A stretch of 64,000 nt of DNA from Xanthostigma xanthostigma. Lineage: Eukaryota > Arthropoda > Insecta > Raphidioptera > Raphidiidae. The notes below the pieces were generated by a model. The model made no database searches. It was not told where the DNA came from and saw nothing but the letters and a program-made list of their open reading frames with translations. Of this stretch, positions 11,968 through 62,803 are shown piece after piece. The DNA is taken from the NCBI GenBank assembly GCA_963575645.1, contig OY754470.1, forward strand, positions 806,001 through 870,000. The letters are read 5' to 3'. Every line of letters starts with the position of its first letter. Within the stretch, counting starts at the first letter, position 1. A program made the position numbers and the translations under genes.

Positions 11968-13517
11968 ATGAGTTACGCTTTTTATGTATTTGCTGTTGCT
12001 GTTGCAGTTGTAGTTCATGTAAGTACAATATAATAATTTATGTTTTTCATGGCAATATTCACTGAACGTAAGTAGTTATTTATTCGGTTCATTTGATCTT
12101 GAGCTAACTGTATTCCTCCGAATATTATAGGTCACTAATAGTTATTAAAAAAAAATACATGGTGTTATTTAAAAAGTGGAGTTATTGATATAGCTTCAGC
12201 GCCTCCACCGAAATAAAGTTCAGTATAAAGGCCTTCTAGAACAATGTAACTTTCATCTGAAATATTTTTGGGTATCATCAATTGTTTATGGACTATTGCT
12301 ATGCAACACTTTATTTGGTAATTTTTATTTTTTAATATTGCAGATATGTTATATAAGTGGTATGTTTAATTTTAAATTTTATGAGAGAGACGCAAAAGTT
12401 CCAAATATCGAGTTAATAGTTCCCGATATAGTGAGACGTATTGGTGAAACTGTTATTGATGGTATTGATGCGGTAAACGATGAATATCTGAACAATATCG
12501 ATGCATTGGACGAACTTATTACCAACGCGATAGGTAGTAGCTCCGACCCTACAAGTGGCAAAGTCAAGTGTCTGAGGTTGCAATCAGATAAATTATTGCA
12601 AGCACGCAAAGAAGCCAACGACGAGGCAACAAAACTGAAACTGAAACTAGACAAACATTGTCGCAAACTGTTGGTTAAAATCAAAGAAATCATGGAGTCA
12701 ATGCCTCATGACTCTAAAGCTGACTCCGTTGTCCATTTATGTGTCAAGGAATTGCATCCAGGTAATGAGATTTTAAAAAATTGGACAATTCTCAGATGTT
12801 GAGCGTCTATAATCCTCGACATGGCACTGTAGAGTAAGTGATAGTTCAGTCGCTGCTTATAATGAGGGGTCCACCAAGTAGGTCGGTATCTTAGACTAAT
12901 AGCTATCTATTTCTAATAATAATTTTGTCATACTTATAGTACTGTAATATACAGTTGTAAGCTCTTTATATTTGACTAAATTGATCACATCATTATTTAA
13001 AAAATATCTTTATTTCTACATCTCAATAAACTGACTCAAAATCAATACGATGGATTTCCGTGCGAGATTCTTACAAAACCATGCTCGTTTGAAGGTATTG
13101 GGGCCTACTACTGAATACGCTTTTCTAAGGCACTGTTGCCTTATAAAACCGTGCTCGTCGTGAGGCAAGTGTCTCCTACTGAAAACGTTTTTGTAAGCTA
13201 ATAGTGCCTCTTACAGTCCAAGGAGTTTTTAACACACGGTTTGAGAACTGGACAAAATCAACTTGTGTTTTGTTTCAGGTTTAAAACAAAAGACAGAAGC
13301 TATCAAATGCATTAATGATTATGGAACTGATTTGACAGTTTCACAAAAGGACTTGGGGTATCGAAAAGCAAATATTATTAAAAAATTTCAGCAGTACGCT
13401 AACAAGAATGATCTTATTTTTCAAGTTGGTATTACGATGGTCCGCTTAGATGATTCTAATAAAGGAAAATTCAACCAAATGTCGATCGACTATCTTTCCT
13501 GTTTAGATATGGTTTAA
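11968..13517 (+). CDS. Secreted four-cysteine protein, paralogue 2
   Basis: The coding exons are 11968-12018, 12344-12761 and 13279-13517, 235 codons plus TAA, with the same intron phases (0 and 1) as the upstream gene. Exon 1 gives a short, very hydrophobic signal peptide (MSYAFYVFAVAVAVVVH). Exon 2 is shorter than in paralogue 1, lacking about 20 residues near its start, but the core with DGIDAVNDEY, KVKCLRLQSDK and QARKEAND is well conserved. The four shared cysteines are kept (KCLRL, HLCVK, IKCIN, LSCLD) and one extra lies in KHCRK. The family is unknown. Shared structure and promoter show a tandem duplication. AATAAA at 13630-13635 is a likely polyadenylation signal. Confidence 0.85.
13071..13212 (+). 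repeat. Two-copy tandem repeat in intron 2
   Basis: Two units of about 70 bp (13071-13140 and 13141-13212) both contain TTA(C/T)AAAACC(A/G)TGCTCGT, CCTACTGAA and TTTTCTAAGG-like sequence. They lie just upstream of the exon 3 acceptor. Confidence 0.6.
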
Positions 13518-20108: not shown

Positions 20109-22838
20109 GTTTTGATTCAATGTTGCTGGCATTATGTTTCCATTTAATTGGAAATCGCAGTATAGTTTGATATTAAACACGACAATAATACAGAAACAAT
20201 ATCAAAAGTTAACATCGTAATATTATCGGCATAATAATAGAAGCGTTAGAGCAGGAGCTATGAAAACAGGATCGCGTTTAAAGTTTATAATTAGTTCGAG
20301 CTATTGTATATATGCTCATAATTTAAAAGTTGTAATATCAAAAGTTTCTCTAATTATTATTTCTCATAAAATCACTCTAATAATCATTATAACACTTAGT
20401 GTCTATCTATTGTTTTAATTTATTAATATAAGCTGATTTTTAATCATCGACTCAAAAAACAAGTGTGTTTGAAGTCTGTCTTTTTTTTTTGCTTTGGGGG
20501 GTGGCTCCACCATATAAGTTATCTGAACAGTATTATTAAATAAACATCACAAAATATCCATGAGCGGCGGGATTCGAACCCTGGACAGTCTGATCTAAAG
20601 GCCAGCACGCTGTCCTTTGTCTTATACAGTAAAAATTAAAAACGCCCCTGATTTAAAACTATTACCTCTAAACTGCTGTTTAAAAAGTATGAAATAATTT
20701 AATATTCATACCCCATGAACGCGTCGGAGACTGCTGCAATACAAAAAAATGGAAATTATTTGATATTATTTAGGAATCGAGAATTTTTAAAATTTTTGTT
20801 ATATAACTAGAAATCGCACGACCGATTTTTATTAAATTTGGTACATTAAGGAACATTAGGTACTTATTTTATTAGGATATTTGCTCGAAATATTTCAATA
20901 ACTAATTTTGGCCGGCTTTTTTTTAACTGAATGATCTTTACTTTAATAAGTAATTAACCTGGGCTAGTTGTGTTATTCAAATAAAATGTCGCAAAAATTT
21001 GACTATTAGGCGACGCAAAAGTGCCAACATATAAACTATATGAAGGCTGCAATTCTAGAATAATTCTGTATATTTTACAGCTCTTAGCGTTTATTTATAA
21101 TTAAAAAAATGGAAGACTAGTACTGTATTCCTTGAACATTGTTTGCGTTAATCCACTATACGTTAATAATAATTATGAATTTTTTAAAGTAAACTTTCTG
21201 GCACCCTCAAGTGTAATTAATGATTCACCTCGTCGATAGAGTTTCTTTCTGTAATCGTTCGGTGTAATTACATAAGAAAACGCCGTAAATTATTTCAAGC
21301 TTGATTATTATTGCCGCATTATTAAAGGTTATTCACTTTAGTTGTGTATAACATAGGTTGACAAAAAAAACAGAGGCAATATAATGAGAGCATAATGGTG
21401 TTATATATCTTTGTTTACTTTGTAAATAATTTTATTAATTGCCAGTTACAATATAACTGAATTTTGAAATTTACAATCTTTGCTATAAATAAATACATTG
21501 TGTTAAGTAATAACCGATAACTTATGCAATTCTTAATTAAAGCCAGATTCACACTTTCATAGACGGGAGGTTAGGTACGTTTAAGGTTTGATACGGGAAA
21601 GTTCATACAAACATAAAATAAATATTAGAAAAGTTTGAGAAAAGCGTGAAATAAAAGTAAAATAAAAACCTTGAATAAAATATGAAAATTTTGAATAAAT
21701 GGTAAAATAAATAGACATTTGAAGTGTGAACAAGTCAATCATTCACCTGACGAATTATTATCAATGCAAAGAGACGTTCAAAACAGAATAATATATAAAT
21801 CCTGCGATTTTAAATAGTCGTTCGTGCCTGTCATTCGCTGTAAAATCCGTCACTTTCAATAATTTTCTACTCTGCTATAGAAAGCTCTGTTTATGTTACG
21901 TTATAAATAAGTTATCGATATCATCTTTAGGGCTGACCAAATCAGAAATGTTTTTATTGATACGTAAATATCTTTACTGGCTTTGGCTGGCTGCTATGGC
22001 TTATATGCACCTATTTGAAAATAATCGCAATTTAATTTCTACGAAGAGAAAAAAGATAAATTATTTTTGCAGTGAATTATTAATTAAACCCTGTTTATAT
22101 TTGTAAGATGAGCTTTCTTAATTTTTCCGTCCGTCTATTACAAGCTCGCAGAGCTAAACGGTACAAGCCAGGGACTTTAAATGGTCTATAGTTAAAGCTT
22201 GTTTTATTTATTATTATGGTAAGAATAAATATTTCCAATTTAATGTTTTGATTGATAATAAATTACAAATCTAATTAATACTTTTACCAATTCTTGCATA
22301 AATATTAAATAGTAGATATTTTCTTTTCAAAATTAATTGATGCGATTTAAAGTATATCCCTGAATTAGGGCTTTTAAAAGTAACTGAATAAGAACCGTTC
22401 TTTCTGTAAACATTTTATCACTGAAAGCACTATATAAAGTTTTCAGCTCCTCTTAAAAATATTTCCGTATGGTGTTTGCTGGTGACGAAAGAAATTTATT
22501 ACTGTAAACATTAATAAAACATAATGTTTTTTCATGTTTATCGGACATTTTTTGACAGCAGAAGTGAATTTACGACGGATGTTAGACGTAAAATATGCAT
22601 GTATTCTAAAGTTATTTGCATTGCAAAAAAACTCTCTTCTTATACAAATAGACTTTACATAGGTATATAATAATATGTTCAAAAGAGCTGTGCACCGTAT
22701 TTGCGAGCGATGCATCCGCTTGTCTGTGGTTTTGCTTAAAACCACATTGTAGAGTCAAACTCTCTCACCCACTCATCAATAAACTTTCATTTCCTCTCTC
22801 ATTCACACACACTAAAAACAATTATTTATCTAAAAAAA
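20109..22838. other. Intergenic, nothing secure
   Basis: AT-rich sequence with one tRNA-like fragment (separate entry) and no supported gene. Confidence 0.35.
20556..20640 (-). repeat. tRNA-like (SINE head or tRNA relic)
   Basis: On the minus strand GGACAGCGTGCTGGCCTTTA is followed by GGGTTCGAATCCCGCC, a perfect B box preceded by an A-box-like region. I could not fold a complete acceptor stem, so this is a tRNA-derived fragment rather than a gene. Confidence 0.45.
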
Positions 22839-23087
22839 TTGGTTGTCTGTAAAGTTGGTTTACGGACGATAGTTTTCCGTGATAACGTCATAAAGAAACA
22901 TTGACGAACTCTCTGACGTCACGCGAGAAGAGAGAGAAATGCCTACAAGCCGACGCTTGGGCCGATCGTGCCTCTCTATCGCTTATACCGCGCTCTCGCT
23001 TGCACGCTCAGGCTCGGGCGGAACGTGACACTTTTTCGTGCGTGCAGCCGGTGTTTCATCAATTTTTAAGACGTTATCACGTCAAAA
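22839..23087 (+). repeat. TTGGTTGTCTG repeat, long form
   Basis: It starts TTGGTTGTCTGTAAAGTTGG, continues with GTGATAACGTCAT and ends GACGTTATCACGTCAAAA. The same ends bound the units at 62323-62803. This copy has about 100 extra central bases that are GC-rich. The inverted GTGATAACGT and ACGTTATCAC blocks suggest a non-autonomous DNA element. Confidence 0.6.
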
Positions 23088-33608: not shown

Positions 33609-33825
33609 AATAGCTGGCCATACACACACAGTTCGATCTGCCGGTTTGGAACGGCGCGGTTCAAACGTGCGTATTTATCTGTCCGTTTGTGGGGTATGCA
33701 CGCGCCAGATGTAACCGGCCCAAACTAGTCTGCCAGTTTGCACTGCCATGGAGAAAACCGTCGCCGCCCACAAACGGGCAGTTTTCGTGCAGTTTTGTTT
33801 TGAAGTTCTAACTGCGACAATCAAC

Positions 33826-33909
33826 ATGTGTTCTGAAGGTGTTGTTGGAATTATAGAGATTTATAAACAGCATCCGACTTTATGGAAAATCAAAAGTACC
33901 TTCATGTAA
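33826..33909 (+). pseudogene. MADF-like Harbinger ORF, 5' fragment
   Basis: ATG at 33826 opens 27 codons reading MCSEGVVGIIEIYKQHPTLW, then a TAA at 33907. The pattern of a hydrophobic helix, YKQHP and LW matches the first helix of MADF (Myb/SANT-like) domains. PIF/Harbinger elements normally encode such a DNA-binding partner beside the nuclease. Here the rest of the domain has been lost at the internal deletion. So short a match could be chance, but its position and orientation within the element are exactly those expected. Confidence 0.5.
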
Positions 33910-33920
33910 CCTGTCTTTAA

Positions 33921-34295
33921 TTAAATATTACGGTACATGTTACTGGTATTAAATATCCCAGCGCCTGTGCAGAAAATTCCCACTGAATATTTTAAATACA
34001 ACCTTCCCGTCGCCAAAAAAACGAAGGGTATTAAGCGTTCCTCTGGATCAATTGCTTCTCTCATTACAGTTTTTTTTTTCGTGAGGGCACCTCTTACTAA
34101 ATTTAATAAAAATGTGTTTATATCCATCCTCAAATAATTCTTAAAATCGTCCGGGTCATTTTCTCTTAGCTCCTTTAATAGAACACTATGGCTGAGTTGT
34201 TTTTTCTTTAGCAAATAACTTTTAACCCATTTAGAACGTCGCTTTCTTACACCCGTATTGTCCATTATTTCCATATTAATTATTGCACAACACAA
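33921..34295 (-). pseudogene. Harbinger transposase (HARBI1-like), N-terminal fragment
   Basis: A 124-codon minus-strand frame from ATG 34295 has the family's N-terminal pattern: RRSKWVKSYLLKK, then LLKELRENDPDDFKNYLRM, then MREAIDPEERL and FLATGR. These precede the DDE nuclease domain in HARBI1-like proteins, which are usually about 350-400 residues. After LKYSVGIF the similarity fades and a stop occurs at 33921, so the catalytic DDE residues are all missing. The stop lies only 11 bp from that of the opposing MADF fragment, so one central deletion probably removed the 3' parts of both genes. No activity is expected. Confidence 0.8.
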
Positions 34296-34704
34296 AGCTA
34301 GTTTTTTTTATCACTTAACATTTCAGCAGTTGACTAAGTTTAACTTTTATAAAAACGGTGCACTTTTTATACGTCAAATAAATTATTTACCTGCAGTTCA
34401 CTTTACTAACATATAAAACCGTGCCGTTCCAAACTTTCGTCAAGACGAAATTCCATCCATACGGTTGAATCTGTGGATAAATCTGCCAGTTTCTCCCACT
34501 AACGTGCAGTTTGGCATGTGACAGACCGCCCGGTGCCAGGTTGATGCGTGGATTTTTGTTTTGCGTTAGTGGGTGGCAACGGTTAAAACCGACATGCCGG
34601 CGTGACGCATCAAACCGGCAGACTTATCTGTGCCGGTTGAAACTGCCGGTTCGATCTCTCTGTGTGTGGCCAGCTAATATTGTAGTTGATGTCCAGTTGA
34701 GCAG

Positions 34705-34839
34705 TCAAACCACCCAGGCAACGCGACTGGTCCTTTCTGCGGTGACCCCAGTCGTTGCAGTCGCCCCACCCGTTGGTCCTCCTATGACACTGATGCCTAT
34801 TGTTCCTGTACCGCCGCGATTTATCGCGGACGACCCTGG
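34705..34839 (-). other. Possible readthrough extension of four-helix gene
   Basis: After the UGA at 34840-34842 the same frame stays open for 44 codons to a second UGA at 34705-34707. The region is GC-rich and Gly/Thr-rich (for example TGTIGISVIGGPTGGATATT). The first stop is UGA followed by C, a known leaky context. A second minus frame and the plus strand are also open here, so base composition may explain the absence of stops. Confidence 0.3.
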
Positions 34840-37800
34840 TCAGTCAGGATCGTATTTACAATCGATACGCAATAACACCATTACTGTCGCCAGAATTGTT
34901 ACCGCAAGGAAAACCTGAAACACACAACAATAACTTTCGGTTAGAGAAGGAATATATCGATTATTATTAAAATGTCTCGAGAGGCAATACAAAATCAGTC
35001 CGAGATGTGTGAAATCTATAGATAAACCGTTTTCGTATTTCGTTTGACAGATTTCTTTAGACACGAAGTATTTTTTTTTAATTTCTTACACGTTCAGCAA
35101 TTGGGCTACACGCTGGGTGCGTGTCGGCAGCACCGCCTGCCGTCTGCAATTTTTCACGCTCTCAAAAGAGCATTTTTCAAATAATTGTAATAATATTTAA
35201 GCGAAACCTTTAATTATCAAATTTTTTATATCTAGTTAATGAAAAATGTAAAAAAATGTGATTCGACGTTTATTTCCACGAAGACTACTAGCGCCGCTAA
35301 CGGACAATAGAGCGAGATTCGACTGCCTTGTTATTAGTGTTTTAAACCGCAAACCTTCTTAATAAACTATATGGCAGAGATGAAAACGACATAAATACGA
35401 CGGCCACATGAAATCATACTCTATAACCGTTGCGTGATTTATTGCTCGTTTGATCCACAGCTCACGCTGCGGTCGATTCAATTGTGTCCCCACTCTATAC
35501 TGTGCACCCGGCAATATAGGCACGCGGTTTAAATATTATAAAACTCAAAATAACGGTTATTATCTTAGCAGATTTTTCGAGACATCTTTGCGTAATCATT
35601 ACTGACCCCGATGCGCTATGAAAATAATTTTGAAAAGATTTCACTAAATTAGTCTCGTGCATGCTCAACAAGAGCGATTTGTGGACAAGAAATTACTATC
35701 ACGAGGTCGAAATTTACTCTTCAATAAATAAAAGACTAACGTCTAAAGATTCTTACAATAAATCTACTAGAGGAGGGTTGTAAGATAGGTGACGACATTC
35801 TCTTTCTCCTCAAACTACCCAGCGATATCTAAAAGAGAGCCTGAAGGCAGTTGTTGTAATCCCTTCTTGCAGAGACGTTTGCGTCCGTTCGCATCTCGTT
35901 AAAGATTCCGATGGTGACGAGGGAAGGAAGAAGGAATAATTGTTAGCTCCTGTCTGCCTCTCTTAATGAAGCATCTAATAATTATTCCGTGAAATTATTG
36001 AGGCTATAGATTTTAAGGTTTTCATTTTATTTTGTGTAAAAAATGTTTTAATAAAAATCATACACAGTTTGAAACGATGTGTTCGGTTTCTAGTTGTTTC
36101 ATGATTGGTTTATAAACAAAATATTACCGACTTGTCAACCAATAAAAGCACCAGAATAATTTCATTTTTAACACTCTTTTATTAACTTCACTCGTGTGTA
36201 TGTATCTATGTATCTATTAATGGGATCTTTCAATTTAATTTTCACCCTCTTCCAAACGTCTGAATGAATTGACATTTTGCACACGTAGTAAGAACCCACG
36301 ACAATAGAAAATTTATCATAATGCATCAATTAATTAAAAAACTGCTGTTACGCAATATTTTTCAAATTTCCTGATTCTATAAAAAATACATCATATAAAT
36401 TAAAATACATATATTATAAATTACATCACAAAAATGCTAATTTTTTTTATTAATTGATCCATTATCTATTAAAAAAATAATATTAATATTACTGGATCTG
36501 AAACACGTATCATGAAACTATTTTCATATCATATTTTTTTCATCAAGAAAATTATCTTAAAAAGTTGATCCGTTTATAAATAAATAAAAATGTTGACGTT
36601 CTATTATTTTATTTTTGTTTTGCTTGTCTTTTAAGTCAAATATGAATGTACATAAAAATAGTCAATTTCCCGTTCTTAAATCGACATCACTATATCTTGT
36701 ATAAATTGCAAATAATTTCTTCCTTTTAATAACGTAATATGCTTGTATATACCTATATCTGTTTTATTATGCATGTAGAAAATAAGTAAAACTGAAAATT
36801 TACAAAGGTATAATATAGAGTTTATTTTTCTCATTTTTGTATAATGTGAAAGTGTATTATATTCAATATGCTTCTTTCCTTTATTTCCAAGTAAACAACC
36901 TTCACAAACAGAATATGTAGAGATCTTGTTCATGACTAAGTCGTGAATGCAGATATAAAATAAAAGAAATAAAAAAATGTTTTATACCACATTTTGAAAA
37001 CTAAGTGAAAAGTATAAAATAATTTCTTTACAGACAGATTTTTAACTTGTAGGATTTGAAACGAAAAACGTGGGGCGCATTATTAGTTTTATATCATAAA
37101 TATATTTTTTCATTGGTAGCTACTCTCTACATTTCTTATATAACTGTCGCATGCGTCCCACATTTTTCGTTTCAAACCCTACAAGTTAAAAATCTGTCTG
37201 TAAAGAAATTATTTTATGCTTTTTAGTATGTTTTAAAAACGTGGTATATATTAAACATGTTTTTATTTCTTTCATTATTTTCTTCTGTTTTAGTATTTTC
37301 TTATATTGTCGTCTAATACTGAGTTCTGTTAAAAATTTCAAGTCTCTATCTCATCAGGAAGTTTAAAATCAATTACAATGTTCCACCCGGACAGACATAC
37401 AAGAAAGTGAGTTAATAAAAACGTGGTAAAATATTATGCAATGTATAATTTGTTATTCGCCGTCATTTTTAGAAAACCAAGGCCATCGCTCTTAGTGTGA
37501 ATCAACTGTCAATTTTACGTTTGACTAAACGGTTTTTTTATTCGAATATAACACTAAAACAAAGGAATTGTCTATTGTTGTGTGTACATTTGTGATGTTA
37601 TTATTATTAAATTATGTAGATATGTGCAGCCAATCATGAATATAATTTATACGGCTAAATAATTAATTAATCTCGACCAGATGCACGTATTAAATGAAAC
37701 GTACCTATACAGAATATTTATACAAAGAAGTAATTTCTCTTCTGTACCTAATACTCACATCTATAGTATCTACATTTGTTTTTTAAGTAAACAAAATTAC

Positions 37801-40800
37801 CTTGTTTTCAAATCTAAAATCTCTCTCTCAAAAAGTAAAGAAATAAAGACACATACATTTTTAGAATGTCTACTCCAGGAGTGGCGAACCTTTCTACATG
37901 TACGTGCCATTTTTGTTCAAAAATGTTTAATGTAGTCATGACGTTAAATTTTCATGTAAAGCTTCATGTGGCGCTATTGAGTTTTTTGACGTGATAACGT
38001 CTTATAAATTGATGAATCACCAATCTTATAAATTGATGAAACACCGGCTGCATGCACGAAAAAGTGTAACGTTCCGCCTGACCCTGTGCGTGCTTTTCTC
38101 GAAAACGGCCCTAACGATTTGGATGAAATTTACTGAAAAGGGATTTTGGGGGGCAAAAAATCGTTTTAGCTAGGTCTCATCTCTCGAAAAAATCGTTTTC
38201 ATACAAATTTTATCATTATAAAAATCAATTTTTTGACGTATGAAAATACTTAAATATTGTAAGTAGGTTTTGGAATTTTATATAAACAATGAAACAATTG
38301 TTTTCAAAATATTATGACAATTAATCTTTGAGACTTAAAATAAATACGAAAGAAAGAAAGTTAAAAAAAACAATTATTATTATAGGTGGTGAGTAATTTT
38401 AATAAATAAAATCAACCTAAATTTGAAGCGAAAGATGCAATATCATAGATTCGAATTATTATAATTATTATATGTAGAATTTAGGTTATGTATTACGGAA
38501 TACGTTATCACGTAAAACTATCGTCCGTAAACCGACTTTACAGACAACCAATTTTTTTTTTTGTTAATTATTATTCAAAGAGCCGATAAATCTTTGACAT
38601 AGCCGACGTTTTAAATAAAGTGTCTACCTGCGTTGTTTAATAGAGACTGAAATTGCAACGTCAGGAACAGTAGTTAGGCTTCGTCGTTATATAGTCTAAC
38701 AATTGAGAAGTTTGTTAGTTAATTGTAAGCCGCACGCGTCCAACCATAGAATAACGTTTTAAGAGATATTCCGGTAAAGTTGGATTTACAAAACGTTCAA
38801 ATGTGCTTTAGAGTCTTGATAAAATCATGAGAATTGCAAGTAAATACTAAAAAGAGCAGCAGTAGTATACCCTGTCTCTGTTCCTAGGGTAGGTAAAGTG
38901 TCTCCGAGAAAATTTGAAAGAAATTGAGTACCTACCTACATAATAGGTCGAAAGTACGTTTACTAATTACGTTAATTAATTACATAAAAACACATAGATA
39001 AATTCGAAGCAAGCAGCTTTGAGGTTATACGTAAAAACCCGAATGAGAGCTACTCGCGACTATTGGCTGGCGGCAGTAGCGGCAGTCTCCATACATGATA
39101 ACTATTTTTCTTTATATAGCTGGTCGAAAGTGCGTACTTTCGGCATCAGTGCGTGTAATCCCACCATACATTTTAGATTATCTGCCTTAAAATTGATGAT
39201 ACTTTCGACCGAGGTATGAAGAAAATATAATCTATTAAATTGTTAGCGTTATTAAACTCATATAAAGACAGCTGCTGCTGCACGTTCATGTGATCAAAAG
39301 AAGAGAAAAAATGCTTCAACTGACGATTTTCTTGATATTGTTTTCTTGATACAATAATTTAGCAAGGGTTCTGTCATTATTTAATAGTAAATATTTATTT
39401 AGGTCTGTTATATTTTTGTTTATACATTTATTCTTCATCGGAAAGTAAATATCTCGGGTAATTTTATATAGATCAGATTACCAGAACCGTCTTTTATCAA
39501 TGTGCTTCTATCACCAGAGAAAATAATATGGTTATTTACAATTTTTTTTACTTGTTTTCAGATGAGCCGTTTTTACAAATGCTCGTCAACTTATCGGTTT
39601 ATTGGTAAGTAATCAAAAATTTTATAAGTATTAGTCAGTGAGTATTTCTCAAAAAGTAAAAGAAGTTGGTCACACTTGTGTGTCCATACTTATGTCCACG
39701 GTGGATACAGTTTCTGGGTCAGTCATTGCGTCAAAAAGTTCCCAAAACTGTTGAATAGCAACCATGGCATGTGAAAACGTTGAAAAACTCTATTCTATAA
39801 GATTAATTATTTATAGTAAAATCGCGTGTTCATCTATAGATTGAAATATTTTCAAAAAAATTGTTACGGGCCTTTTTACTCTTGGTTCTATCCCTGTCTT
39901 CTACAACTTAACCACACACTACCAAGCAGAAAACTGTGCTTCGATGACAAACTTTGTTTTGCCTGTTCGCTGCAATGTGTTAAGGCCCCCATACACCTCG
40001 TTCTTTTTTGGCAGTTTTAACCGCACGGGTAAAACTGTACCTACGGGTAAAACGGTCGGTGTGTGGCCAAAAACCGTCCTTCTTACCGGCGTTCAAAAAT
40101 ATCTGCTGCTGCTTGATTTAAACCGTCCGTTTTAAACGTGGCGTTCAAGTCGGCCCGTGTGTGTGACGACACAGTTAAAAAGGACGGGTTTTGTTCGACT
40201 CTGTAACGTTGTAGGATCCATCAAAGCAGATCAGATGATGCAACGACTTCAGAAAAACTGAACTAAACAACGCCTAGTGTATGGATATGGTCGTTGTTCG
40301 TGTTTACCCGTACAGTTTTGCCCGTGCGGTTAAAACTGCCAAAAAAGGACGAGGTGTATGGGGGCCTTAAAGTCTTTCACAGAACAGATAAAAATCTATT
40401 TTGCTTTATACTGCGTTACTTACATCATAATCCAGAAATAAAATTTCAGTCCGCTGCAATGGCGAACTTGAAGCAAATTGAAATTTTTATTTCGAGGGTT
40501 ATAATAAGTGACGCGGCAAATAACATAATTTTATCTGAAAATGGAAGTGGAAAAAAGTATAAGATTTGTTTACTTTCAAAATAAAATAAAATCTATTAAA
40601 AAAAAATTATACTGTGTGTCCTGTCCGTAGCTTGTAACGCTAAAGAAATGAAAAACACACGGTCCCTATTTACACTCTCCCGACCTGTTTTTTGAACTTA
40701 GAGGTCCATGTTGATAAAGGATGCACCCAGTTTTTAGAAATAGAGAAAAAAATCAGTGGAGGGAACATAAAAACTTCTGATGCTCAAAATGATGTTAAAA

Positions 40801-43800
40801 TTTCACAAAGTAGCTTGTATCGCGTAAAAGAAAACCATCAGCTTTAAATTTAAAATGCAGTCTCGGATGAAAAATACGACAGGGAGTGTGTAACAAAATT
40901 TAAGGCGGCTATATCCCTCTTAAAATAATCACGTTCCACTGATTGGGCTATTTGAGTGAGAATCTCAACTATGTACAAACTACAAACCCTTCTGTTAGCT
41001 ACTCTGTATATATATTCATTGTTAAGATGTTTGAGGGCAGACTTTGTACAAAGCGAAGACATTAAGACAGTTGAACACACTACAATATCAATAAGTTTCA
41101 GGATAATAGGTTCAGTATTCAGACCACAAGAATCATGAAACATGTCAATTCCACTTTAAACTACGTAAATGAACGGTTAGTGAATTACTTCAGTGGCCTT
41201 TGATCGTTCTATCCGATAAATTCTCAAGTTTATTCTTAAGTGATCGGATTAATGTTTGAACTTCTTGTCTTATCAAACTCAAATAAGAAGCGATTTCGAT
41301 TTGAGAATTGTCGAGTTCTATAGTATATATCTAGATGCCGTTATTTATATTGCGTTTTCATGGGTTATCTATAAAAAGAGATGTATCGGCTTATGGACAC
41401 ACGGCAGAAACTATGTTCCTTAAGCATTTTATATTAATGTTTAAAATTTACGTATAAACAAAACACAACAACATTATTGTTATTAGTTGTCAAAAATAAT
41501 AAAATAAATATTAAACTACGGGACGCATTTCAGTGACTTTAAACAGGGTTCTGGTCTAATAGTAAACAAAGTGAATAAAATATAAACCAAGGCGATCCGA
41601 CCAAAATTGCGATCTGTAGAGCTCGGACGTACGTACGTACAGATCAATCGACAACTGCTGTTCGAGATTTTCAATTACAATTTTAGGAGTATTATGAACT
41701 CGAATCAATCTAAAAATGGTTCCGTTTTATAGAACAGAATGTCCCCTTATCTAAGAGCTACAATTTGATTAGATTTCGTTCGAAATTAACTTAGATATAA
41801 CTTCTTGTATGAACGAACACAAAGCGATTATAGAGCACATATCGCTATCAGTGCAGCGATATTATGTGCAATTCGCTCTAGGTATCTTTAAAACTGTACA
41901 ATTACAGACAAAGATAAAATTTTATTTATTTGAATTCTTTCAACTAACATCTGTATAATTCATTTAAAAAACGGCTCTCTCAGTATATGAATTTTGTTAA
42001 TAAATATAATATAAAAAATGGTTTTATTATATTATGTATAGATTCGTTATACTACATAAACGGATTTATAGGCCCCGCAAAAACGTCACATTTGTCCCTA
42101 ACGCCCATGCACTGAGTAGCTCTTTCACGTAACGAAATCGATTAGAATTTATTGATCCAAAGACCAACAATTATATACCATAGGATTCGTCAAAAAGAAA
42201 GATATTTCGTGTTTACAACTCATTTACAACAAAATTATCTACCTTATATTATAGAGACATTGTTTAATTATTATTAATGAAAAACGAGCTAATTTTAATC
42301 ACAAACCTGTATTCCCGAGAGCACAACAAGATCCTGTTGATCGGGTGCATCGATGTCATCAGCTAAAAGTTCTATCTGCGGCGTGCGCGACAATGTGCGT
42401 ATCGCTTGTGCGAAAAGTGCCGTCTGTAGCGAGCATGCCATGCCCCACAGAACCGCTAGCGGCGCTGCGACGCGAACTGACGGACCCAGGAAGCGCAGTG
42501 ACGACCCGGGCATGCACGTTGACGGCTGGTAACCGTCGAATCCACGACTCGTATGAATGCTTGCGGCTATAACAGAAGAACGTAGTTGACAAAATATTTT
42601 TTTGTTTTTCTGAAAGTGTCTTTGATTTTTTACGTGGTAGTATAATACGCGCCACGGATCTAAAAGGTTCGGAAGTTAGTCACAAGCAGCGTTGCAAAGG
42701 CACATTTTAGAGACGTTGAGACCCCCACCACCTCCTAGCTACCTGCACGGAACGTGCGCTCGTCAGTGATTGGCCGTGATCGCTCGTTGCCTTTGTCGCT
42801 TTCCTGCTTTAAAGTACAGTCAAGTTCACTATTGTCAAGTTGTTACTGTTATTTTAGTTTTGTTGAGTTGCGAGTTTGTAGTTTTTCAACAGACTGTTCA
42901 AGCGCAAGCACGCATTCGCATCTAACTTCCAAGCCTTTTAGATTCGTGGCGCGTATTATAATACTCGACCTGATTTTATTTTTCTTAAAATGAAATCGCT
43001 AAATATCCTACCGCGTTATTTTTAATTTCAATTTTGAAATTCCGTGCTAAAACGCCAGACGCCAGAAAAGATGAGATTTTAAATCCGATGTGACATTTTT
43101 GAATCGCTCTAAATGACGAACAATGTTTTCCGATCGACTGTTGGGAGCTTTTACTGTATTAATATTATTAAAGCTATGATCATTATGTCAAGAACGTTGT
43201 TCAAAGTGAACTTGATCAAACAAAAACGAAATGAAATATTCCTCCATTATTAATAGAACGTGAAAGTGGTGAAAATTAATGTTTGCCGTTATCGAAAATA
43301 CATAAAATGTCAAGTGGCCCCGCTCTTTATATATAGGATTATATAATAGATTATGTCGTTCAACACGCTGAAAAGTTGGAGAATGTGGCTTCTACAGATA
43401 ATACAGTAATGCCAACAAAAACCCCTTTGCAATTTAATCCCCCTGTGCGCAGTGAAGGCATTCTTCATTTTGCAAAACACGCAGGTCTAACAGAAATACA
43501 AATAACTGTTTATATTTGTATTCACTGATCTCTTTCAAGAACACATGGATAGCGGATAGGCTTTCCAAACGCGTACTTCTTAGACGCTCTTGTTTCAAAT
43601 CGCCACAAGGCAAATCAGGGAGAGGGACTGTCAAATCGTCGATTGCAAACTATACCGGTATCTTATGATAATTTAAATTTGACGCCTACTGGAATGTCAT
43701 ATTTAAATCGAATTACCAACTTTACGAACAGGCTTTTCTCCCCGTGCTGTGCTGGTTCCTGCTTGACACGTATGCGCGGTCTTTTAAAATACCTCTTTTT

Positions 43801-44328
43801 CTTATAAAAACACTTTTCACAAAAAGAAAAATTAAATAATATCGCAGCTATTATCCGAACGGAGTTTGATTGGGATTTCAAAGTGGTATTGCATAGTTTT
43901 CCATTGAAAGATTTATTCCATAAAAAGGGTAGGTATAACATTTTTAAAAATATAGAAAACGTGTAAAAATAAAGAAAGAAAAATACCTGCGGCAATTACT
44001 GTAGCACCACCTGCGGGAATTCCCAGACCCAAGTTAAATTCACCTCTCTCTTCAATAAATGCCACCGTGCCCATTAACAATGACGAAATGCCGCAGACAA
44101 TCTGAAACAACAAAGGAATTAAAGACAATTAGTTCACTTCGCGTATTGTTGATTTTGAAACTTTATTTTCACATAAATAAAATTTACCTGTAACACTCTT
44201 AATCTGAGAACCACCGCGAAGGGATAGGTTTTTTCGTTCTGTAACGGAACATCGTCTCCCATAGGTTCATCTCCGTCAGGTGTCACAATTGCGGGAGCAA
44301 TTGATTCTTTTCGTTGTCCAAGTTGAAT
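34840..44328 (-). CDS. Four-helix membrane protein, spliced
   Basis: Coding exons on the minus strand are 44328-44188, 44101-43987, 42566-42307 and 34914-34840 (stop UGA), joined by GT-AG introns in phases 0, 1 and 0. With the candidate first exon at 51650 the protein has 202 residues. Four hydrophobic segments are predicted: about 48-69, 77-96, 122-147 and 179-194. The N-terminus is polar and the C-terminus short and charged (DCKYDPD). The loop between helices 1 and 2 reads EERGEFNLGLGIP. It is probably a small tetraspanning membrane protein. I cannot name the family, and it lacks the tetraspanin CCG signature. The last intron of about 7.4 kb holds several mobile elements. Matching phases and hydrophobic pattern across four exons make chance unlikely. 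Confidence 0.75.
34915..36962. other. Large intron of four-helix gene, no other gene seen
   Basis: AT-rich sequence with a GC-richer patch near 35105-35155. No ORF or repeat edge could be supported. Confidence 0.4.
36963..37274. repeat. Long hairpin, arms of about 115 bp
   Basis: The left arm (to about 37078) contains TTATACCACATTTTGAAAAC and AATTTCTTTACAGACAGATT. The right arm (from about 37156) contains their complements. The loop is about 75 bp. It resembles a foldback MITE and encodes nothing. Confidence 0.75.
37275..37984. other. Intronic, nothing recognised
   Basis: AT-rich sequence without supported features. Confidence 0.4.
37985..38560 (-). repeat. TTGGTTGTCTG repeat split by an RTE-like piece
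   Basis: The two ends of the repeat seen at 62323-62803 lie at about 38498-38560 (ACGTTATCACGTAAAACTAT on the plus strand) and 37985-38093 (GACGTGATAACGTCTTATAA). Between them, about 38094-38290 is a reverse copy of the RTE-like fragment at 2796-3116. A small duplication of CTTATAAATTGATGAA lies at about 38005-38040. Confidence 0.6.
38561..39982. other. Intronic, minor repeats only
   Basis: GTCGAAAGTACG near 38948 and ACTTTCGACC near 39203 are inverted and may bound an eroded MITE. A block at about 39633-39780 (TTCTGGGTCAGTCATTGCGT and a GTCCACGGTGGA motif) recurs at 49860 and 63850. Confidence 0.4.
39983..40366. mobile_element. Harbinger-type MITE, short copy
   Basis: It has almost perfect inverted ends of about 60 bp, GGCCCCCATACACCTCGTTC and its complement, flanked by TTAA on both sides. 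The interior is shared with 26501-27204 (CATCAAAGCAGATC, CGACTTCAGAAAAACTGAAC). It lies inside the last intron of the four-helix gene. Confidence 0.75.
40367..42306. other. Intronic, nothing secure
   Basis: Short frames on both strands (for example 40850-41143) lack domains and splice context. Confidence 0.4.
42641..42960 (+). mobile_element. MITE, TA-flanked, copy 2
   Basis: TATAATACGCGCCACGGATC at the left and the complement of GGCGCGTATTATA at the right form the inverted ends. The interior matches copy 1 at 4768-5070 apart from small indels. It starts about 75 bp upstream, in transcript sense, of the splice acceptor at 42567 of the four-helix gene. Confidence 0.75.
42961..43986. other. 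Intronic, nothing recognised
   Basis: No repeat or gene boundary could be supported. Confidence 0.4.
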
Positions 44329-44731
44329 CTGAAAAAAAAAACACAGAAACGTTTATAAATGATGCACAAGAGAAAGAGAAAAAATTCTTCAATTCTTTCA
44401 AATTAAAAAAAGGCATTAATCTTCAGAAAACAAAGGGATATCTGAAGTTTCATTATTAAATTAACACGAAAAGATGAAAATATTGAAGTACCTAACTATA
44501 GGAGACGACATTAAAATAATCGTAAGGTTTGCCCAAAGCTAACCATTTTTTGAGAAAGTTCGAAGCGTTGACTGAAATAAGTATTCAAAATAATTTTGAA
44601 AAAAAAAATGTGAGGGTCAGATCAGACGAGATACCCCGCACACCGCGATTTTTTGACAGATCTTGTTTGAAACATAATATAATATGGGACTCCTAAATTT
44701 CTTTTCAGAATTCATGACTATTTGATTAATA

Positions 44732-45429
44732 TACAGATTGTATCAAATCAAAACAGTCCATAGAACATTCTGTGTGTAAGACAGAGACGATATTATATAA
44801 AGCACTAAAGCAGTAAGTAAGAATGAGATAAATGATCGCTAATAGTTACTGTGGTTATACAATCTGATAGTATCATCTTTGTTTTCTACAGTAAAAATCA
44901 CAATTTTATCAAATGTCAGTATTCACTAGTGAAATTATTGATAAAATGACTATTTATACTTTTCGGGAAAAAATCCAAATAATTAAATTATGGGGATTTG
45001 TAAAATCCAAAATTTATGGCTTTCAAGAAAATAGAGCTAATAATTTAAACGAATTGAAAATACAGATTTCCAATGCATGTCAGTTCGTTGACCGTGAGAT
45101 GTTTGCCAATGTGAGGGAAAATATTTATAATCGATTAGGATATTGTTTGGCAGAACGTGAAGGTCTTTTTGAACATTTAATAAATTAATTATTAAAAGTA
45201 TTGTTAAAACTTTTGTACCAGATATAAATCTAATACGAATTAATATTACAGTTTAGTTGTTTTAATTGATAAATTGGTAAAAAGATTTACAGCGTACGTA
45301 ATTATTTATTTACGTAACCACAGTAACTATTAGCGATCATTTATCTCATTCTTACTTACTGCTTTATATATCGTCTCTGTCTTACACACAGAATGTTTTA
45401 TGGACCGTTTTGATTTGATACAATCTGTA
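44732..45429 (+). mobile_element. Deleted Tc1/mariner-like element with fused ORF
   Basis: The element 44734-45427 starts CAGATTGTATCAAATCAAAA and ends with its near-complement, flanked by TA. The inverted ends extend about 130 bp through GACAGAGACGATAT and GATCGCTAATAGTTACTGTG. The interior is AT-rich and carries one short frame with both ends of a transposase. Confidence 0.75.
44913..45188 (+). pseudogene. Transposase remnant: N- and C-termini joined
   Basis: This 91-codon frame has an N-terminal segment YTFREKIQIIKLWG, similar to the first helix-turn-helix of IS630/Tc1/mariner-type transposases. It runs directly into a C-terminal tail, LNELKIQISNACQFVDREMF, then NRLGYCLAEREGLFEHLIN, like their C-terminal ends. 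The central DDE/D catalytic region, normally about 200 residues, is missing, yet the frame is unbroken. It therefore cannot cut DNA. The assignment rests on recognising family patterns by eye and is moderate. It may be plain decay or a retained small DNA-binding protein. Confidence 0.5.
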
Positions 45430-46231
45430 TTTAACTTTGGTTCAATTATGTTGTCATAGATTTCTAACTGACTGACGAATTGTAGATTGTAGACGCTCGA
45501 CAGGTTGATTTCTAGCTTCGCTACGCCGACAATACAAACATAGAAGATTAGATTGGATTACAGATTATAGACGCTCGACTGTAACCTAGAAGCATAGCCA
45601 GTATTTAAAATAGCAAGACGGATTTTTTGTAACGAAAAGGTTCTTTGTTAGTTTATTGATGAAAAAATGAATTGGTTGCCAGACCTAAATAGTCTTAGCT
45701 GTTGATGGCCCAAAAAATTGAGAAAAAAAAATCTCTCGTCAATAAAACGAACGACTGAAGTGCTACAAAAACTACCTCACTGATGAGACCACCAATAAAT
45801 AAACTGATCGAACTAATAATATAGCAAATAAAAAATAGCTTATCGATTCTGTATTTGCTGCAATTTCATATAGCTGACACAATTTAATTAACATCTCGAG
45901 CGTGATGAATATTTATAATGTTCATTCAAAATAAAATTTTATTATAGTAAAAACCAGAAATACAAAACATACACACATAAATATTAGTATAAAATATATT
46001 ATCAAAACATTATTTACAAGTATATGCTTGATTTTGAAGACCAAAAGTTTAAATAAATAATACATTACAAGTTAATATAAATATGATAAAATAATAAGTA
46101 TTGTAACTACTATGTCGTAATTTTTTCACTCCTTTTGAATCTTGAAAAATCATTGAGAAGGCAGTATAAAATTTTTCTCTTATTTGTGTTCTACTAATGA
46201 AAGTTATGAAATTGTTTTTTTTTCTCGTATT
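45430..46231. other. Spacer 3' of WDR63
   Basis: It holds two copies of a 17-bp motif, GATT(G/A)TAGACGCTCGAC, at 45485-45501 and 45563-45579. On the minus strand AATAAA at 45938-45943 could be the WDR63 polyadenylation signal, about 290 bp after its stop. Confidence 0.4.
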
Positions 46232-49200
46232 TTATACTGGGTCGTTGCCAGAAACATCTGACACACCATCTACTGTTCTTGGCGATTCTTCACTTGGACT
46301 CTTTTCTACCGTTCCAAGATTTTCCACTTGCTCGTCAATCGTTTCCATGTTTCGTTTACTTTCCGTGCGATTTTTGCGATTTTTATTTTTTCTTCTCAAA
46401 GCCACGTCAATTGTTCGACGTCTTTCGGTGCCATCACGAAGAACTTTGTTCCAGTCGAATTTGTATTTGAAAGGATTGTTGTCGACATATTCAGACAAAG
46501 AATTTGTGAGAGCTTCATATTGTTCAGGCAGTTTTGAATATATCTCCTCCTCGTTGATATTAATATCAAGACGTTGTAAATCAACATGTTCGGCATGTAT
46601 TTGAGTAGTTTCTGGAAAGAACATGGATACGGTTTCTTGGAAAATTCTATCCTGCTGACTTAAAATAGACCTCTGTTTTTCTTTTTTCAGTTCTTCTTGT
46701 TCTCTTATTTTTATCAAAGGCATTTGTTTCTTTTCTAAGTCTTCTTTGACCAGTTTTTTTTGATCGAGTAATAAACGATAATAGCGTTTCTCCTGATCCT
46801 TTTCCCATCGTTTTTTCGACCATTCTGAGTACATACCGGGCTGCGGCTTTTCATCCAAGGCTTTTTGTTTTAAAATGGCTAGCTCCTCTAATCTCTTTTG
46901 CTCCTCGGCTTTGTCTTTTTCTAACTGTAGTTCCATTTTTCTCAATTTGATTTTCTGTTCATGTTCTTCTTTTTTTTTCAATATATATTCTTTATTGCGT
47001 TCATTCCATTGATTTTGCCAAACTTCGTGAACCATTCTCCTGTCTTTATCGCGTTCAAATATATAGGCCAGTCTAGTCAACTCTTCCTCGTCATGATACT
47101 GATGCAACCTAGGAATATTAAACATACGGAACGATCCATGTTCATCTGCAATACCCATCACTTCTACGTTGTTAATGCTAAATGGATCTATGTAACAGCC
47201 CGTTAACATTTTACCAGAAACGCTCTGTACGATGACGGGTTTGTCTGAATGCACTAGCAAATCCCAAACCTCCATCGAACCATCCTGACGCGTCAAATAA
47301 AACACAGAGCACCGACCCATTGACCAGGAACACGACGTTAACTTATATTTACATCGCCGTATCAACGCCGATTCCCTCAGTTCTTTCCAAATGCCGAACA
47401 TGCATCCACCGATTGCTAAATACACGTTTTCCAAGAAAGGTGATCGTCTAATATCGGTCACGCAGCTTCCAAACACTTTATTAAAAATCTTGAAATTTAT
47501 TTGTTCAGAATTTATAATTTGACCAGATTCAAAATCATAACCGTCCCAACTGCCAATGATAAAATCGCCTTCTGCTGTTCCAATCGCCAATTCGGATAAC
47601 GGCAACATTCGTATAGGTATCGGCCTATAAATTATTCTTTGGTATGGTATTTTTAGACGATGCGGTATTGGATCTTCTTCTTCATAACGCACTCTAGGAG
47701 GACCGGCACTAAGTGCTACTATAGGTATATTTCTGCCCGCCTTGGTAGCTACAATTAATTTGTATATAGGTCTAACAGCTCTATTCAAATGTTTATAAAC
47801 CGAAGTGTCCATGGCTAAGGCCGACGGTCTTTTTTCGAGTCTTTTAGACTTACGTCCTGCTTTGGCGACTTGTAATCCGCCCGGTGTCCACTCTAAGTCC
47901 CAAACGCAAATCGTACCATCTAGACTGGCTGTCACGAATTGTTTAGAATATTCTTGTTCGTGGTCTCCTTCTGCTACGGGCACAGCTTCGTAGCGACCAG
48001 TCGGAGTAACTTTATTAAATGGTGGCAGCCATCGTATTTCTGATATACCGTCAGTATGAGAATATTCCAGTGAAGAGACTGCCGCCGGCTGTACAACCGC
48101 GTGGTTCCTTATATTCAACATCCAATTCATCAATGAAAACATAGTTATTCTATATTTTTGTTGTGCTGTTGTTAAAATTTCGTCTTCTTCAACGTTTTTC
48201 AATTTGTTTTTCAGATCCCAAATTGCGACTTGACCGTTACTCAAACCTCCTATTAATAAATTCGCATCAATTGGACAAAACGAAATCGTAGTTATTTCTC
48301 GTGGAGCAATTAAGCGAAGTTTCGGAAAAAGGGCATCGGTTAAACTCCATATAAGCACCTGATGTGTACCGTGAACAAGTCTGTTGACGGGATCGCTGGT
48401 GTCTTTCGTGGTATTCATTCTGCAAACACTTAAGACGGCATAAGCGACGGCAACAATGTCCGTCCACATCGGATGCCAAGCGGCGCACGATATCAATTTT
48501 CCAGCGCTCGTAATAATATCCGAAAACGACATAAACTCTTTATAGATAATTTTTTCAGGGGTGTGTACGTACCGTGAATTTTTCACCAATTGCGAATAAT
48601 CATTTTGGTACATATCGAATACCGTATTGTAATCGATTTGACTACACATTTCATCAGCCCGTTGATTAACGAAATCCTCCATGGTCAATTGTCCCTCTTC
48701 ATATTTCAGTTTAGGAACTACGTATTCGTATTTGTATTGAGTATACTTATTGGTCGGATATGTGGGTAGTGTTTGCGCATGATTATCTCTTGTCAGTGCA
48801 GCGGCTTGAACGGCGGTATGGATGCGTCTCTTGTACACGTTGAAATATTGTGCTCGACCCGGAAGAATTTCTGCATAGCCGTCGTGAACATCTTCCACAT
48901 TACGATTTTTAAACTTTAATGTATCTTCAAATATCGGAAACCTCGACTCGATTTCGACTTCATAGAGGGTACGCGAACTCTGATCCGGCTGGAGTTCTCT
49001 TACTTCGGCTTCACTTCCTAACGAAGTCCACTCGCCTATATTCTTTAAAACTGAATTCTTTAAGCGTTCTTCTTGTACCGTTTCGATCCGTTGTATAATA
49101 GTTGCAACATTTTTTTTCGCATCGTCAGTTACGCACACGTAGAACGAATCGATTTCAGCCGATTCGTCGGGAACGTATCCCACTAACATTTCGGTTCCGG

Positions 49201-49555
49201 GATATTTAATAATCTCAGTTTTAATTGGAAGAAAATCGGAACTCTCTTCGTGTAATTCGAGATTGTCTGCGATTTCTTCTTTTTTAATATATTTCCACGG
49301 CTTTTCTGAAGTTACGTCTTCACCCACTACACAGTTAAGTATTTTTTGTGTCAGCGGTGTTAAAACCACTTTTGACACTCCCGGAATTTCTGTAAATTCT
49401 TTGGTGAAAGTTTGTTCTTCAGATATGCGTTTAGTAACCGGCCTTTTGCGCATCTGTCTAGCTGCTCGTCGTTTCATTTTAGCTTCTAGTCGTGCTTTCT
49501 CCATTTTTTCCATTTTCTCTTTGTCAGTTTTATCTACTTTCTCTGATTTTTCCAT
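46232..49555 (-). CDS. WDR63: WD repeat protein 63 / dynein intermediate chain 3, axonemal
   Basis: An unbroken 1107-codon frame encodes an axonemal dynein intermediate-chain-like WD40 protein. Its family (WDR63/DNAI3) acts in inner-arm dyneins of cilia and flagella, in insects chiefly in sperm and sensory neurons. A lysine-rich N-terminus (1-45) precedes a conserved N-terminal region. WD repeats span about 350-815, with WD motifs at VLIWSL (400), VAIWDL (443), ICVWDL (549) and MEVWDL (761). A charged coiled coil follows (about 845-965), then a C-terminal extension. Human WDR63 is about 890 residues, so this is longer. The start ATG at 49555 has AAAAATGG context, and no in-frame upstream extension is needed. 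The gene is intronless. Assignment to WDR63 rather than another dynein intermediate chain is from memory of the family. Confidence 0.9.
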   Translation of the reverse strand: MEKSEKVDKTDKEKMEKMEKARLEAKMKRRAARQMRKRPVTKRISEEQTFTKEFTEIPGVSKVVLTPLTQKILNCVVGEDVTSEKPWKYIKKEEIADNLELHEESSDFLPIKTEIIKYPGTEMLVGYVPDESAEIDSFYVCVTDDAKKNVATIIQRIETVQEERLKNSVLKNIGEWTSLGSEAEVRELQPDQSSRTLYEVEIESRFPIFEDTLKFKNRNVEDVHDGYAEILPGRAQYFNVYKRRIHTAVQAAALTRDNHAQTLPTYPTNKYTQYKYEYVVPKLKYEEGQLTMEDFVNQRADEMCSQIDYNTVFDMYQNDYSQLVKNSRYVHTPEKIIYKEFMSFSDIITSAGKLISCAAWHPMWTDIVAVAYAVLSVCRMNTTKDTSDPVNRLVHGTHQVLIWSLTDALFPKLRLIAPREITTISFCPIDANLLIGGLSNGQVAIWDLKNKLKNVEEDEILTTAQQKYRITMFSLMNWMLNIRNHAVVQPAAVSSLEYSHTDGISEIRWLPPFNKVTPTGRYEAVPVAEGDHEQEYSKQFVTASLDGTICVWDLEWTPGGLQVAKAGRKSKRLEKRPSALAMDTSVYKHLNRAVRPIYKLIVATKAGRNIPIVALSAGPPRVRYEEEDPIPHRLKIPYQRIIYRPIPIRMLPLSELAIGTAEGDFIIGSWDGYDFESGQIINSEQINFKIFNKVFGSCVTDIRRSPFLENVYLAIGGCMFGIWKELRESALIRRCKYKLTSCSWSMGRCSVFYLTRQDGSMEVWDLLVHSDKPVIVQSVSGKMLTGCYIDPFSINNVEVMGIADEHGSFRMFNIPRLHQYHDEEELTRLAYIFERDKDRRMVHEVWQNQWNERNKEYILKKKEEHEQKIKLRKMELQLEKDKAEEQKRLEELAILKQKALDEKPQPGMYSEWSKKRWEKDQEKRYYRLLLDQKKLVKEDLEKKQMPLIKIREQEELKKEKQRSILSQQDRIFQETVSMFFPETTQIHAEHVDLQRLDININEEEIYSKLPEQYEALTNSLSEYVDNNPFKYKFDWNKVLRDGTERRRTIDVALRRKNKNRKNRTESKRNMETIDEQVENLGTVEKSPSEESPRTVDGVSDVSGNDPV

Positions 49556-51649
49556 TTTTTTGATGTTTGATTAATTTAACGTTTGACAGCTTTTCATATG
49601 CAGTTATTTTTATATTACCTGCAAAGCACACTTTAATCAAGTTTTTTAAACAATTACTGTTATCTATTATTATAATAACATGTGGGTAGTATTTCTTTTA
49701 AAACTTGAACAGTTTTCAGTGGTAGTCTTAACTTCTACCGAATTGCAATCAACACTCAAAATTTAAGAACGCTTACTAATTTGATTAAAAAAAATTATAA
49801 TTATGAAATTAACCTGATCTCTTATAAGAAAATCGCGCATTCTTAATATTGAGAAACGTTACTGGGTCAGTCATTACGTCAAAAAGTGCCCGAAACATTT
49901 GAATACCGTAATCACCACCATGACGAAAAATGTTCGATCATTCCGTATATAGTTTATTAACTCTCCTAGTTAAAATTCTCACCTCGAACTGAATCTTCAA
50001 AATGCAGTCCTAAATTGGATCGACTTTAAGACATGCCGGAAGTTTCTCAAAAATAACAGCCGTTTGACTTCAAGATTCACAATATCATTTTGTTCTATAC
50101 ACAAATGTCACAGTACTTATAAATGCGCTGTCGAGCGTCTATAATCTACAATATGTCTATCTTGTTAATACTTTCACATTACCGACATTCTAAATTCGAC
50201 ATGTTTTAATTGTAAAGTTAAATAACCTTTATTTCTCTATTGACGTACGCAGTCTGTTTGTAATGTTATAACAGTAATATTTGCTACATCAATACAAAGC
50301 TTACAAAATAAAATAGTACCAGGCAGTGACGGGTTTGCCTTGATGTTTCATTTCACCTACAGTAAACGGCCACACCAAAGGGGATTATTTCAAAATATAG
50401 ACTGCGTATAGTACGTTTGTTGTTAAGGTGACTGTTTACTTAGGTTATAAAAAACGCTCTCAACAAATTTTAAACCGTGGTCGCAAAAGGCATTTAACTA
50501 CTGTTTTTATGCTGTGATTAAGCGCATAATTTGGCTTGTCGCTTGAAAATTTCAAGAAATACATTTTTTGTCTTAATCATTGTGTCAACAAATTTGATAT
50601 ATTTTGTTAATATTTGTTTATATAAGAGGCTATCAAAATTTCAATTACAACGAATTCACAGTCAAAGTTAAATTGTTAGATGGAAGCATTTCCCATTATT
50701 GTTGTGTGATTTCGTAAACCTTTTAAGAAATTCAACTTTTTCATTACATAAACGAACCAAAACACACTATAAAATAAAAGCATTGCTTTCGCGAAAATTC
50801 TCAGTTGTACATATGTTTCTGTGTCGGAAAATTTTGTCTTGTATGCTTCGGTGTCTCACATCAAAACTTTATTATTAATAAATTAACATCACGAGATTCT
50901 GACACTGTATTCAGTCTAAAGTTAGTTTATATTGTATTTTGTTTTCAAAAAAGGAAAAACATAACTGATTTTTAAGATTTTGTAATACAATGTTCCTGTC
51001 AAGTTTTATAACTTTATAATCATTTTGTGTGTAATTTTCTTGGGTTAAAATAATAGTCGTTTATAGCCATAGTTTTGCTACAATTGTCAAGAAACGTTCA
51101 TTGTTAAAATGCTATATTAGAAAAATGTATTTTCAAACACTGTCACCGTCGGAACTCAAAACCGAATCTTTTCACTATCGCGGCAGAATGAGTTATCTTA
51201 ATTGCTCAACAGTGATATATCCAGGTCGGTGCAGTAAAATTGAATAATTTTACTATTATTTCATATTACTTCAGCTGGGATCGAACCTGCCAAGTTCTGA
51301 ACAGTATACAAGACATATGACATGACACTGCTTCCAACTAGCTTATAGAGCTTTTTATTTATATTTTTTTTCTATATTATATTCTAACTAAAGTTTACTA
51401 AATACGTGAAATGCCAAATAGTCAAAGATATGAATGCTGAAAATGTTGAAAATACTGAAAATGAAGACAAAAATCGCATTTTTATAAGAAATGAATGCAG
51501 CTTCGACTCATATGACTGTTACATTCGCAAGGTCTCAAGTAACCATTTAACAAACGTCACACTAGATAAAATCGCCTCCATTACGCCCTAGATACTTAAT
51601 CTAAAAGCATTATTCTATTCTATTAGTTTTTAAAAATAAACATACTTAC
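49556..51649. other. Spacer 5' of WDR63, minor repeats
   Basis: About 49860-49950 repeats the GGTCAGTCATT(A/G)CGTCAAAA block of 39720. A copy of GTCGAGCGTCTATAATC lies at 50130-50146. The rest is AT-rich without supported genes. Confidence 0.4.
51270..51352 (-). repeat. tRNA-like SINE head
   Basis: On the minus strand TAAGCTAGTTGGAAGCA resembles an A box and GGTTCGATCCC is a perfect B box about 50 bp later. The cloverleaf is not complete, so a tRNA-derived SINE or tRNA relic is more likely than a gene. Confidence 0.45.
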
Positions 51650-51667
51650 AATTTCCGAAACTTCCAT
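51650..51667 (-). CDS. Candidate first coding exon of four-helix gene
   Basis: ATG at 51667 opens six codons (MEVSEI) that end at a consensus donor, ATT|GTAAGT, in phase 0. The first firm exon at 44328 starts in phase 0. No in-frame ATG precedes the conserved-looking start of that exon within 44188-44328, so an upstream exon is needed unless translation begins at its internal Met (residue 29). If correct, intron 1 spans about 7.3 kb and contains WDR63 on the same strand. The exon is short enough to be a chance match. Confidence 0.4.
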
Positions 51668-61862: not shown

Positions 61863-62322
61863 TTATGTTTATATATTTTTCCTTTAAAGTTTTGTAAAGG
61901 ATAGAAAACAATAATAACAAAATTGTCCTTTACAGGCATAAATCCTTTGTATGAGAGGAAATATTGGCATATATGAAATATGCACAATGATCGTCCCAGT
62001 ACAAACATTTTTTAATCTTCTTATGGCCGTGATAAATCTGTTTTCAATCTATTTTAGAATATCAAAACACTGATGCTAAAAACGTAAAAGATGTCATTAT
62101 ATATAATATGCGTAAATATTTTTATTATGTGCAATTCGAAAGTTAGACCGATGTTTTCATTTCAAAAAATATGAGAAGTGTTTGATGTGTCACAAATAAT
62201 TTTTAACATTTCTAAATATTGCAATCAATTCTTCGTTGAACCGCGTATTTTGGGTAGCGAGCTAAAAATTTGGTTTATAGATCATGAATACTGAACTACA
62301 AACGTTTATATATAAAAAAAAA
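61863..62322. other. Intergenic, nothing recognised
   Basis: AT-rich, no supported feature. Confidence 0.4.
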
Positions 62323-62803
62323 TGGTTGTCTGTAAAGTCGGTTTACGGACGATAGTTTTACGTGATAACGTATTCCGCTCGAATATCCAGGCGGAACGTG
62401 ACACATTTCGGAACGTGACACTTTTTCGTGCATGCAGCCGGTGTTTCATCAATTTATAAGACGTTATCACGTCAAAATGGTTGTCTGTAAAGTCGGTTTA
62501 CGGACGATAGTTTTACGTGATAACGTATTCCGCTCGAAGGTCAGGCGGAACGTGATGCATTTCGGAACGTGACACATTTCGGAACGTGACACTTTATCGT
62601 GCATGCAGCCGGTGTTTCATCAATTTATAAGACGTTATCACATCAAAATGGTTGTCTGTAAAGTCGGTTAACGGGCGATAGTTTTACGTGATAACGTATT
62701 CCGCTCGAAGGTCAGGCGGAACGTGACACATTTCGGAACGTGACACTTTTTCGTGCATGCAGCCGGTGTTTCATCAATTTATAAGACGTTATCACGTCAA
62801 AAA
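62323..62803 (+). repeat. Three tandem units of 155-171 bp
   Basis: Units at 62323-62477, 62478-62648 and 62649-62803 each start TGGTTGTCTGTAAAGTCGG, have TACGTGATAACGTATTCCGC, then GGCGGAACGTGACAC copies and GTGCATGCAGCCGGTGTTTC, and end GACGTTATCAC(G/A)TCAAAA. The middle unit has one extra 17-bp AACGTGACACATTTCGG. Single copies lie at 22839 and 37985. Confidence 0.85.

Follow-up and report, generated by a model that had tools for sequence, protein, structure and literature searches.

A spliced gene for a small, predicted four-helix membrane protein in Xanthostigma xanthostigma

The window analysed here is a stretch of 64,000 nucleotides from Xanthostigma xanthostigma (contig OY754470.1, positions 806,001-870,000; G+C 33%), and all positions given below are counted within it. 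Its minus strand carries four segments, E2 to E5, that can be spliced into one open frame for a small membrane protein, together with a candidate first exon, E1 (Table 1). Between E1 and E2, on the same strand, lies a gene resembling DNAI3/WDR63 that was absent from the earlier note on this DNA.

Table 1. Minus-strand exons of the membrane protein gene and the neighbouring ORF, with positions in the window.
Feature	Position	Strand	Description
E1, candidate first exon	51650..51667	-	ATG, MEVSEI (six codons), donor GTAAGT
DNAI3/WDR63-like ORF	46232..49555	-	uninterrupted, 1107 aa; within intron 1 if E1 is right
E2	44188..44328	-	N-terminal tail, first part of helix 1; in-frame ATG is Met 29 of the 202-aa join
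E3	43987..44101	-	bulk of helix 1, and helix 2
E4	42307..42566	-	helix 3, acidic loop, start of helix 4; G+C 58%
E5	34840..34914	-	remainder of helix 4, stop TGA

The earlier note had proposed that four minus-strand segments join by GT-AG splicing with matching phases, and that no single ORF shows the gene. Both claims hold. The junctions are GT...AG at 44188/44101, 43987/42566 and 42307/34914, with phases 0, 1 and 0, and the joined frame of E2-E5 stays open as far as the TGA at 34842-34840 (minus), whereas both alternative frames of the join contain many stops. What is gained is a well-bounded model for a small membrane protein gene that is invisible in any single ORF.

Coding potential points the same way for most of the gene. 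With a codon model trained on the neighbouring DNAI3 ORF alone, the joined frame has log-odds of +20.2 bits in E2, +10.6 in E3, +20.9 in E4 and -3.8 in E5, and it is the top frame among the three on the minus strand in each of the four exons. Frames on the reverse strand come close behind in E3 (+8.9) and E4 (+17.9), and in E5 two of them (+5.0 and +5.8) exceed the joined frame; under different smoothing the score of E5 is +1.6. We also searched the window for exon chains by dynamic programming, with the DNAI3 ORF cut out, introns of at most 2 kb and no guidance from the earlier finding. The best minus-strand chain was E2-E3-E4, with boundaries exact to the base, at 69.6 bits against a maximum of 35.3 and a median of 14.5 in dinucleotide shuffles made in 400-base blocks (50 windows, 100 strands); absolute bits are rough, since we used hand-set splice matrices. 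The best plus-strand chain, at 42.8 bits, was a single exon (9028-9481). When introns of up to 9 kb were allowed, the top chain again opened with E2-E3-E4 and continued into five weak exons rather than E5; the search had no terminal exons and so could not choose it. Sequence and statistics together make E2-E4 almost certainly parts of one gene.

Where the protein begins is less sharply defined. Upstream of the E2 acceptor the frame runs into a stop with no in-frame ATG in between, so that the protein must either depend on splicing at this acceptor or start at the ATG within E2. The fifth, upstream exon suggested in the earlier note does fit, in that E1 joins E2 in phase 0, but it is just one of 15 phase-0 ATG exons (12 donors) between 60000 and 44328, seven of which fall within the DNAI3 ORF, and E2 has an ATG of its own. 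Among the eight outside that ORF, E1 scores highest. The protein accordingly has between 174 residues, starting in E2, and 202 residues, starting in E1.

The ORF that lies between these two exons matches PDB chains 9fqr_Hw, "WD repeat domain 63" (E 4.6e-85), and 8j07_k1, "Dynein axonemal intermediate chain 3" (E 2.5e-81). The similarity is nearly full-length, with residues 28-889 of 1107 aligned to 6-869 of 892 in 9fqr_Hw. The ORF is intronless, which could mark a retrocopy or be usual in this group, and its C-terminal end extends about 200 residues beyond the solved chains. Given its position, E1 is either a first exon whose intron holds a nested gene or a chance fit.

As to the protein itself, the four hydrophobic helices of the earlier note reappear as four hydropathy peaks of at least 1.5 in the 202-aa join, at residues 51-69, 77-95, 124-142 and 171-189. 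Four peaks were also reached by 21 of 2000 whole-protein shuffles, and taken alone they are thus just moderately unusual. The net charges on the N-terminal side of helices 1 to 4 are +2, -2, +2 and -3, and from these helix-end charges we infer that both termini are cytosolic, the first outer loop being short and the second longer and acidic. This second loop, between helices 3 and 4, has about 25 residues and no cysteine (the cysteines are at 56, 109, 136 and 197), and the 202-aa protein has no N-glycosylation sequon. We consider it likely that E2-E5 are all or nearly all of the coding exons of one gene for a four-helix membrane protein of this predicted topology. We take the spliced gene to be real and ordinary, and its product is probably called "uncharacterized protein" where it is annotated.

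Family searches gave one lead. No Pfam family passed its cut-off for the spliced protein, and the only match of the 202-aa protein at E up to 1 was MgtE (PF01769; E 0.19). MgtE (E 0.19 and 0.11) and SLATT (E 1.1) were taken as chance. The CD20-like family, PF04103, did not appear for the full-length protein at that threshold, and on the 164-aa core it scored 10.9 bits (E 0.47). On three overlapping pieces around helices 1 and 2 its scores were, in descending order, 17.0, 16.1 and 15.4 bits; by piece, the E-values were 0.012 (69 aa), 0.02 (81 aa) and 0.0065 (55 aa). These pieces were picked by hand with CD20-like proteins already in mind from the helix pattern, which favours a match. Neither the core nor any piece reached the gathering cut-off of 27.9 bits. 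The match covers positions 2-52 of the 156 in the profile, and helices 3-4 had no Pfam match.

Shuffled pieces help to weigh these values. When the 69-aa piece was segment-shuffled 60 times, PF04103 itself was never matched, and a single family match came in at or below 0.012 (E 0.0093). PF04103 was likewise matched by none of 40 shuffles of the 55-aa piece that preserved glycines, prolines and charges; among these, five other families came in at or below 0.02, the best at 0.0014 and 0.0094, and the matches below 0.01 were to two other membrane families. Since shuffles reach comparable E-values against other families, values in this range are no proof of anything when the pieces are hydrophobic.

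The protein resembles the CD20-like family in its four helices, in an N-terminus that hydropathy and charges predict to lie inside, and in the sub-threshold profile match across helices 1-2; it differs in a score under the cut-off, in the unmatched helices 3-4 and in its cysteine-free second outer loop. Like tetraspanins (PF00335), it has four helices, and its second outer loop is the longer one. It lacks the CCG motif, a tetraspanin feature according to a human four-helix survey (PMC4815072), and its loop has no cysteine, as against 4-6 in the large second outer loop of tetraspanins. PF00335 was not among the Pfam matches of the 202-aa protein or its pieces. That survey also places FAM189A1, FAM189B and TMEM212 in PF04103.

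We think it rather probable that the four-helix gene is real yet not CD20-like, encoding for example an arthropod-restricted tetraspan, and that its similarity to PF04103 arose by chance. This would fit the score beneath the family cut-off, the similar E-values that control shuffles attain against other families and the second outer loop without cysteine. It would also fit a 2010 survey of MS4A genes (PMC2826416), in which short similarities of this sort occur in unrelated membrane proteins and invertebrates are concluded to be without MS4A-like genes. It fits less well with the failure of every shuffle of either piece to match PF04103 itself, and with an alignment that begins at the start of the profile and lays helix 1 on helix 1. 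CD20-like kinship is for us a tentative lead, suggested by the profile match and short of membership by the family cut-off.

Searches among more distant collections bear little on this choice. PDB sequence searches returned nothing useful (one match at E 1.3 in one search, none in another), and no relative was confirmed in viral and prokaryote contigs. Such collections could hardly hold an insect orthologue, and their silence says little. The further suggestions of the earlier note, that the protein is conserved in insects and may be undescribed, gain no support from these searches. A literature search found no insect CD20-like protein, which is no proof of its absence from print. If orthologues were to confirm a CD20-like origin, the gene would bear on the question of older roots for the group, the MS4A branch being reported from jawed vertebrates only (PMC2826416).

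By analogy with CD20-like tetraspan proteins, helices 1 and 2, which are rich in small residues, may let the protein pack against copies of itself or against other membrane proteins as partners, and such packing would set the assembly or activity of the partners. We regard this as the most likely mechanism, though a tentative one; a scaffold or auxiliary subunit would be the most likely role.

A different doubt concerns the 3' end, where E2-E4 could be real and spliced to another last exon, with E5 and its helix a chance fit. E5 is 7.4 kb distant, its coding signal is weak, and the chain search was unable to select it. Moreover, two of the 29 acceptors of at least 2 bits between 42252 and 30000 lead into a transmembrane-like terminal exon, E5 and a second one at 40592. 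Against this, E5 is superior to the 40592 candidate: its acceptor has 4.3 bits against 3.2, its hydropathy is 2.23 against 2.08 and its coding score 1.6 against -6.8. It also completes the fourth helix already started in E4. We hold another last exon to be unlikely, and on sequence and statistics E5 is probably the last exon of the E2-E4 gene. That the gene has decayed into a pseudogene is highly improbable: nothing speaks for it directly, the joined exons are free of stops and frameshifts, all splice sites are intact and the chain score is far above the shuffles.

The stop codon at the end of E5 has some features of a readthrough site. The TGA is followed by C (TGA-C, 34842-34840, minus) and then by a perfect inverted repeat, CCGCGAT-AA-ATCGCGG, and 44 G+C-rich codons stay open down to 34708 (minus; feature 34705-34842). 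According to a study of flies and mosquitoes (PMC5100048), readthrough genes are enriched for TGA stops, for C as the next base and for RNA structure. The fold has z -2.05 over 46 bases (9 of 200 shuffles equally good) and z -0.86 over 86 bases (39 of 200). The window has a single mismatch-free copy of the inverted repeat, and a match within three mismatches was found in 41 of 100 shuffles. The 43-codon tail shows no coding signal in its own frame: the minus-strand frames score -21.2, -27.8 and -28.0, a plus-strand frame scores +6.7, and 344 of 2000 shuffles did equally well. The 43 codons remain open in 19.7% of 5000 shuffles. On this weak evidence we set readthrough of the E5 TGA aside. That the gene encodes an invertebrate CD20-like tetraspan, and that it may also host the uninterrupted DNAI3 gene within intron 1 and have a readthrough tail, seems to us rather improbable.

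The window holds several other features. Just past the 3' end of the membrane protein gene is a minus-strand element (33612-34675) with inverted ends, AGCTGGCCACACACAG ... TGTGTGTGTATGGCCAGCT; it contains an ORF (33924-34274) with no Pfam match, which from its appearance may be a PIF/Harbinger transposon remnant. On the plus strand, two pairs of ORFs are neighbours (8995-9504 with 10493-10753, and 12296-12802 with 13245-13514). Their first parts are identical at 66 of 121 positions and their second parts at 26 of 78, and the pairs have the look of a two-exon gene duplicated in tandem; no Pfam family exceeded its cut-off for them. Rfam and tRNA scans of the 64-kb window were empty. Copies of a dispersed repeat at 42641-42960, which sits within the intron between E3 and E4, and at 4768-5070 are 90-92% identical. 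A further repeat at 62319-62802 includes a 171-base tandem unit containing the 17-mer CGGAACGTGACACATTT, and has dispersed copies near 22836-23087, 38024-38093 and 38496-38559, on both strands.
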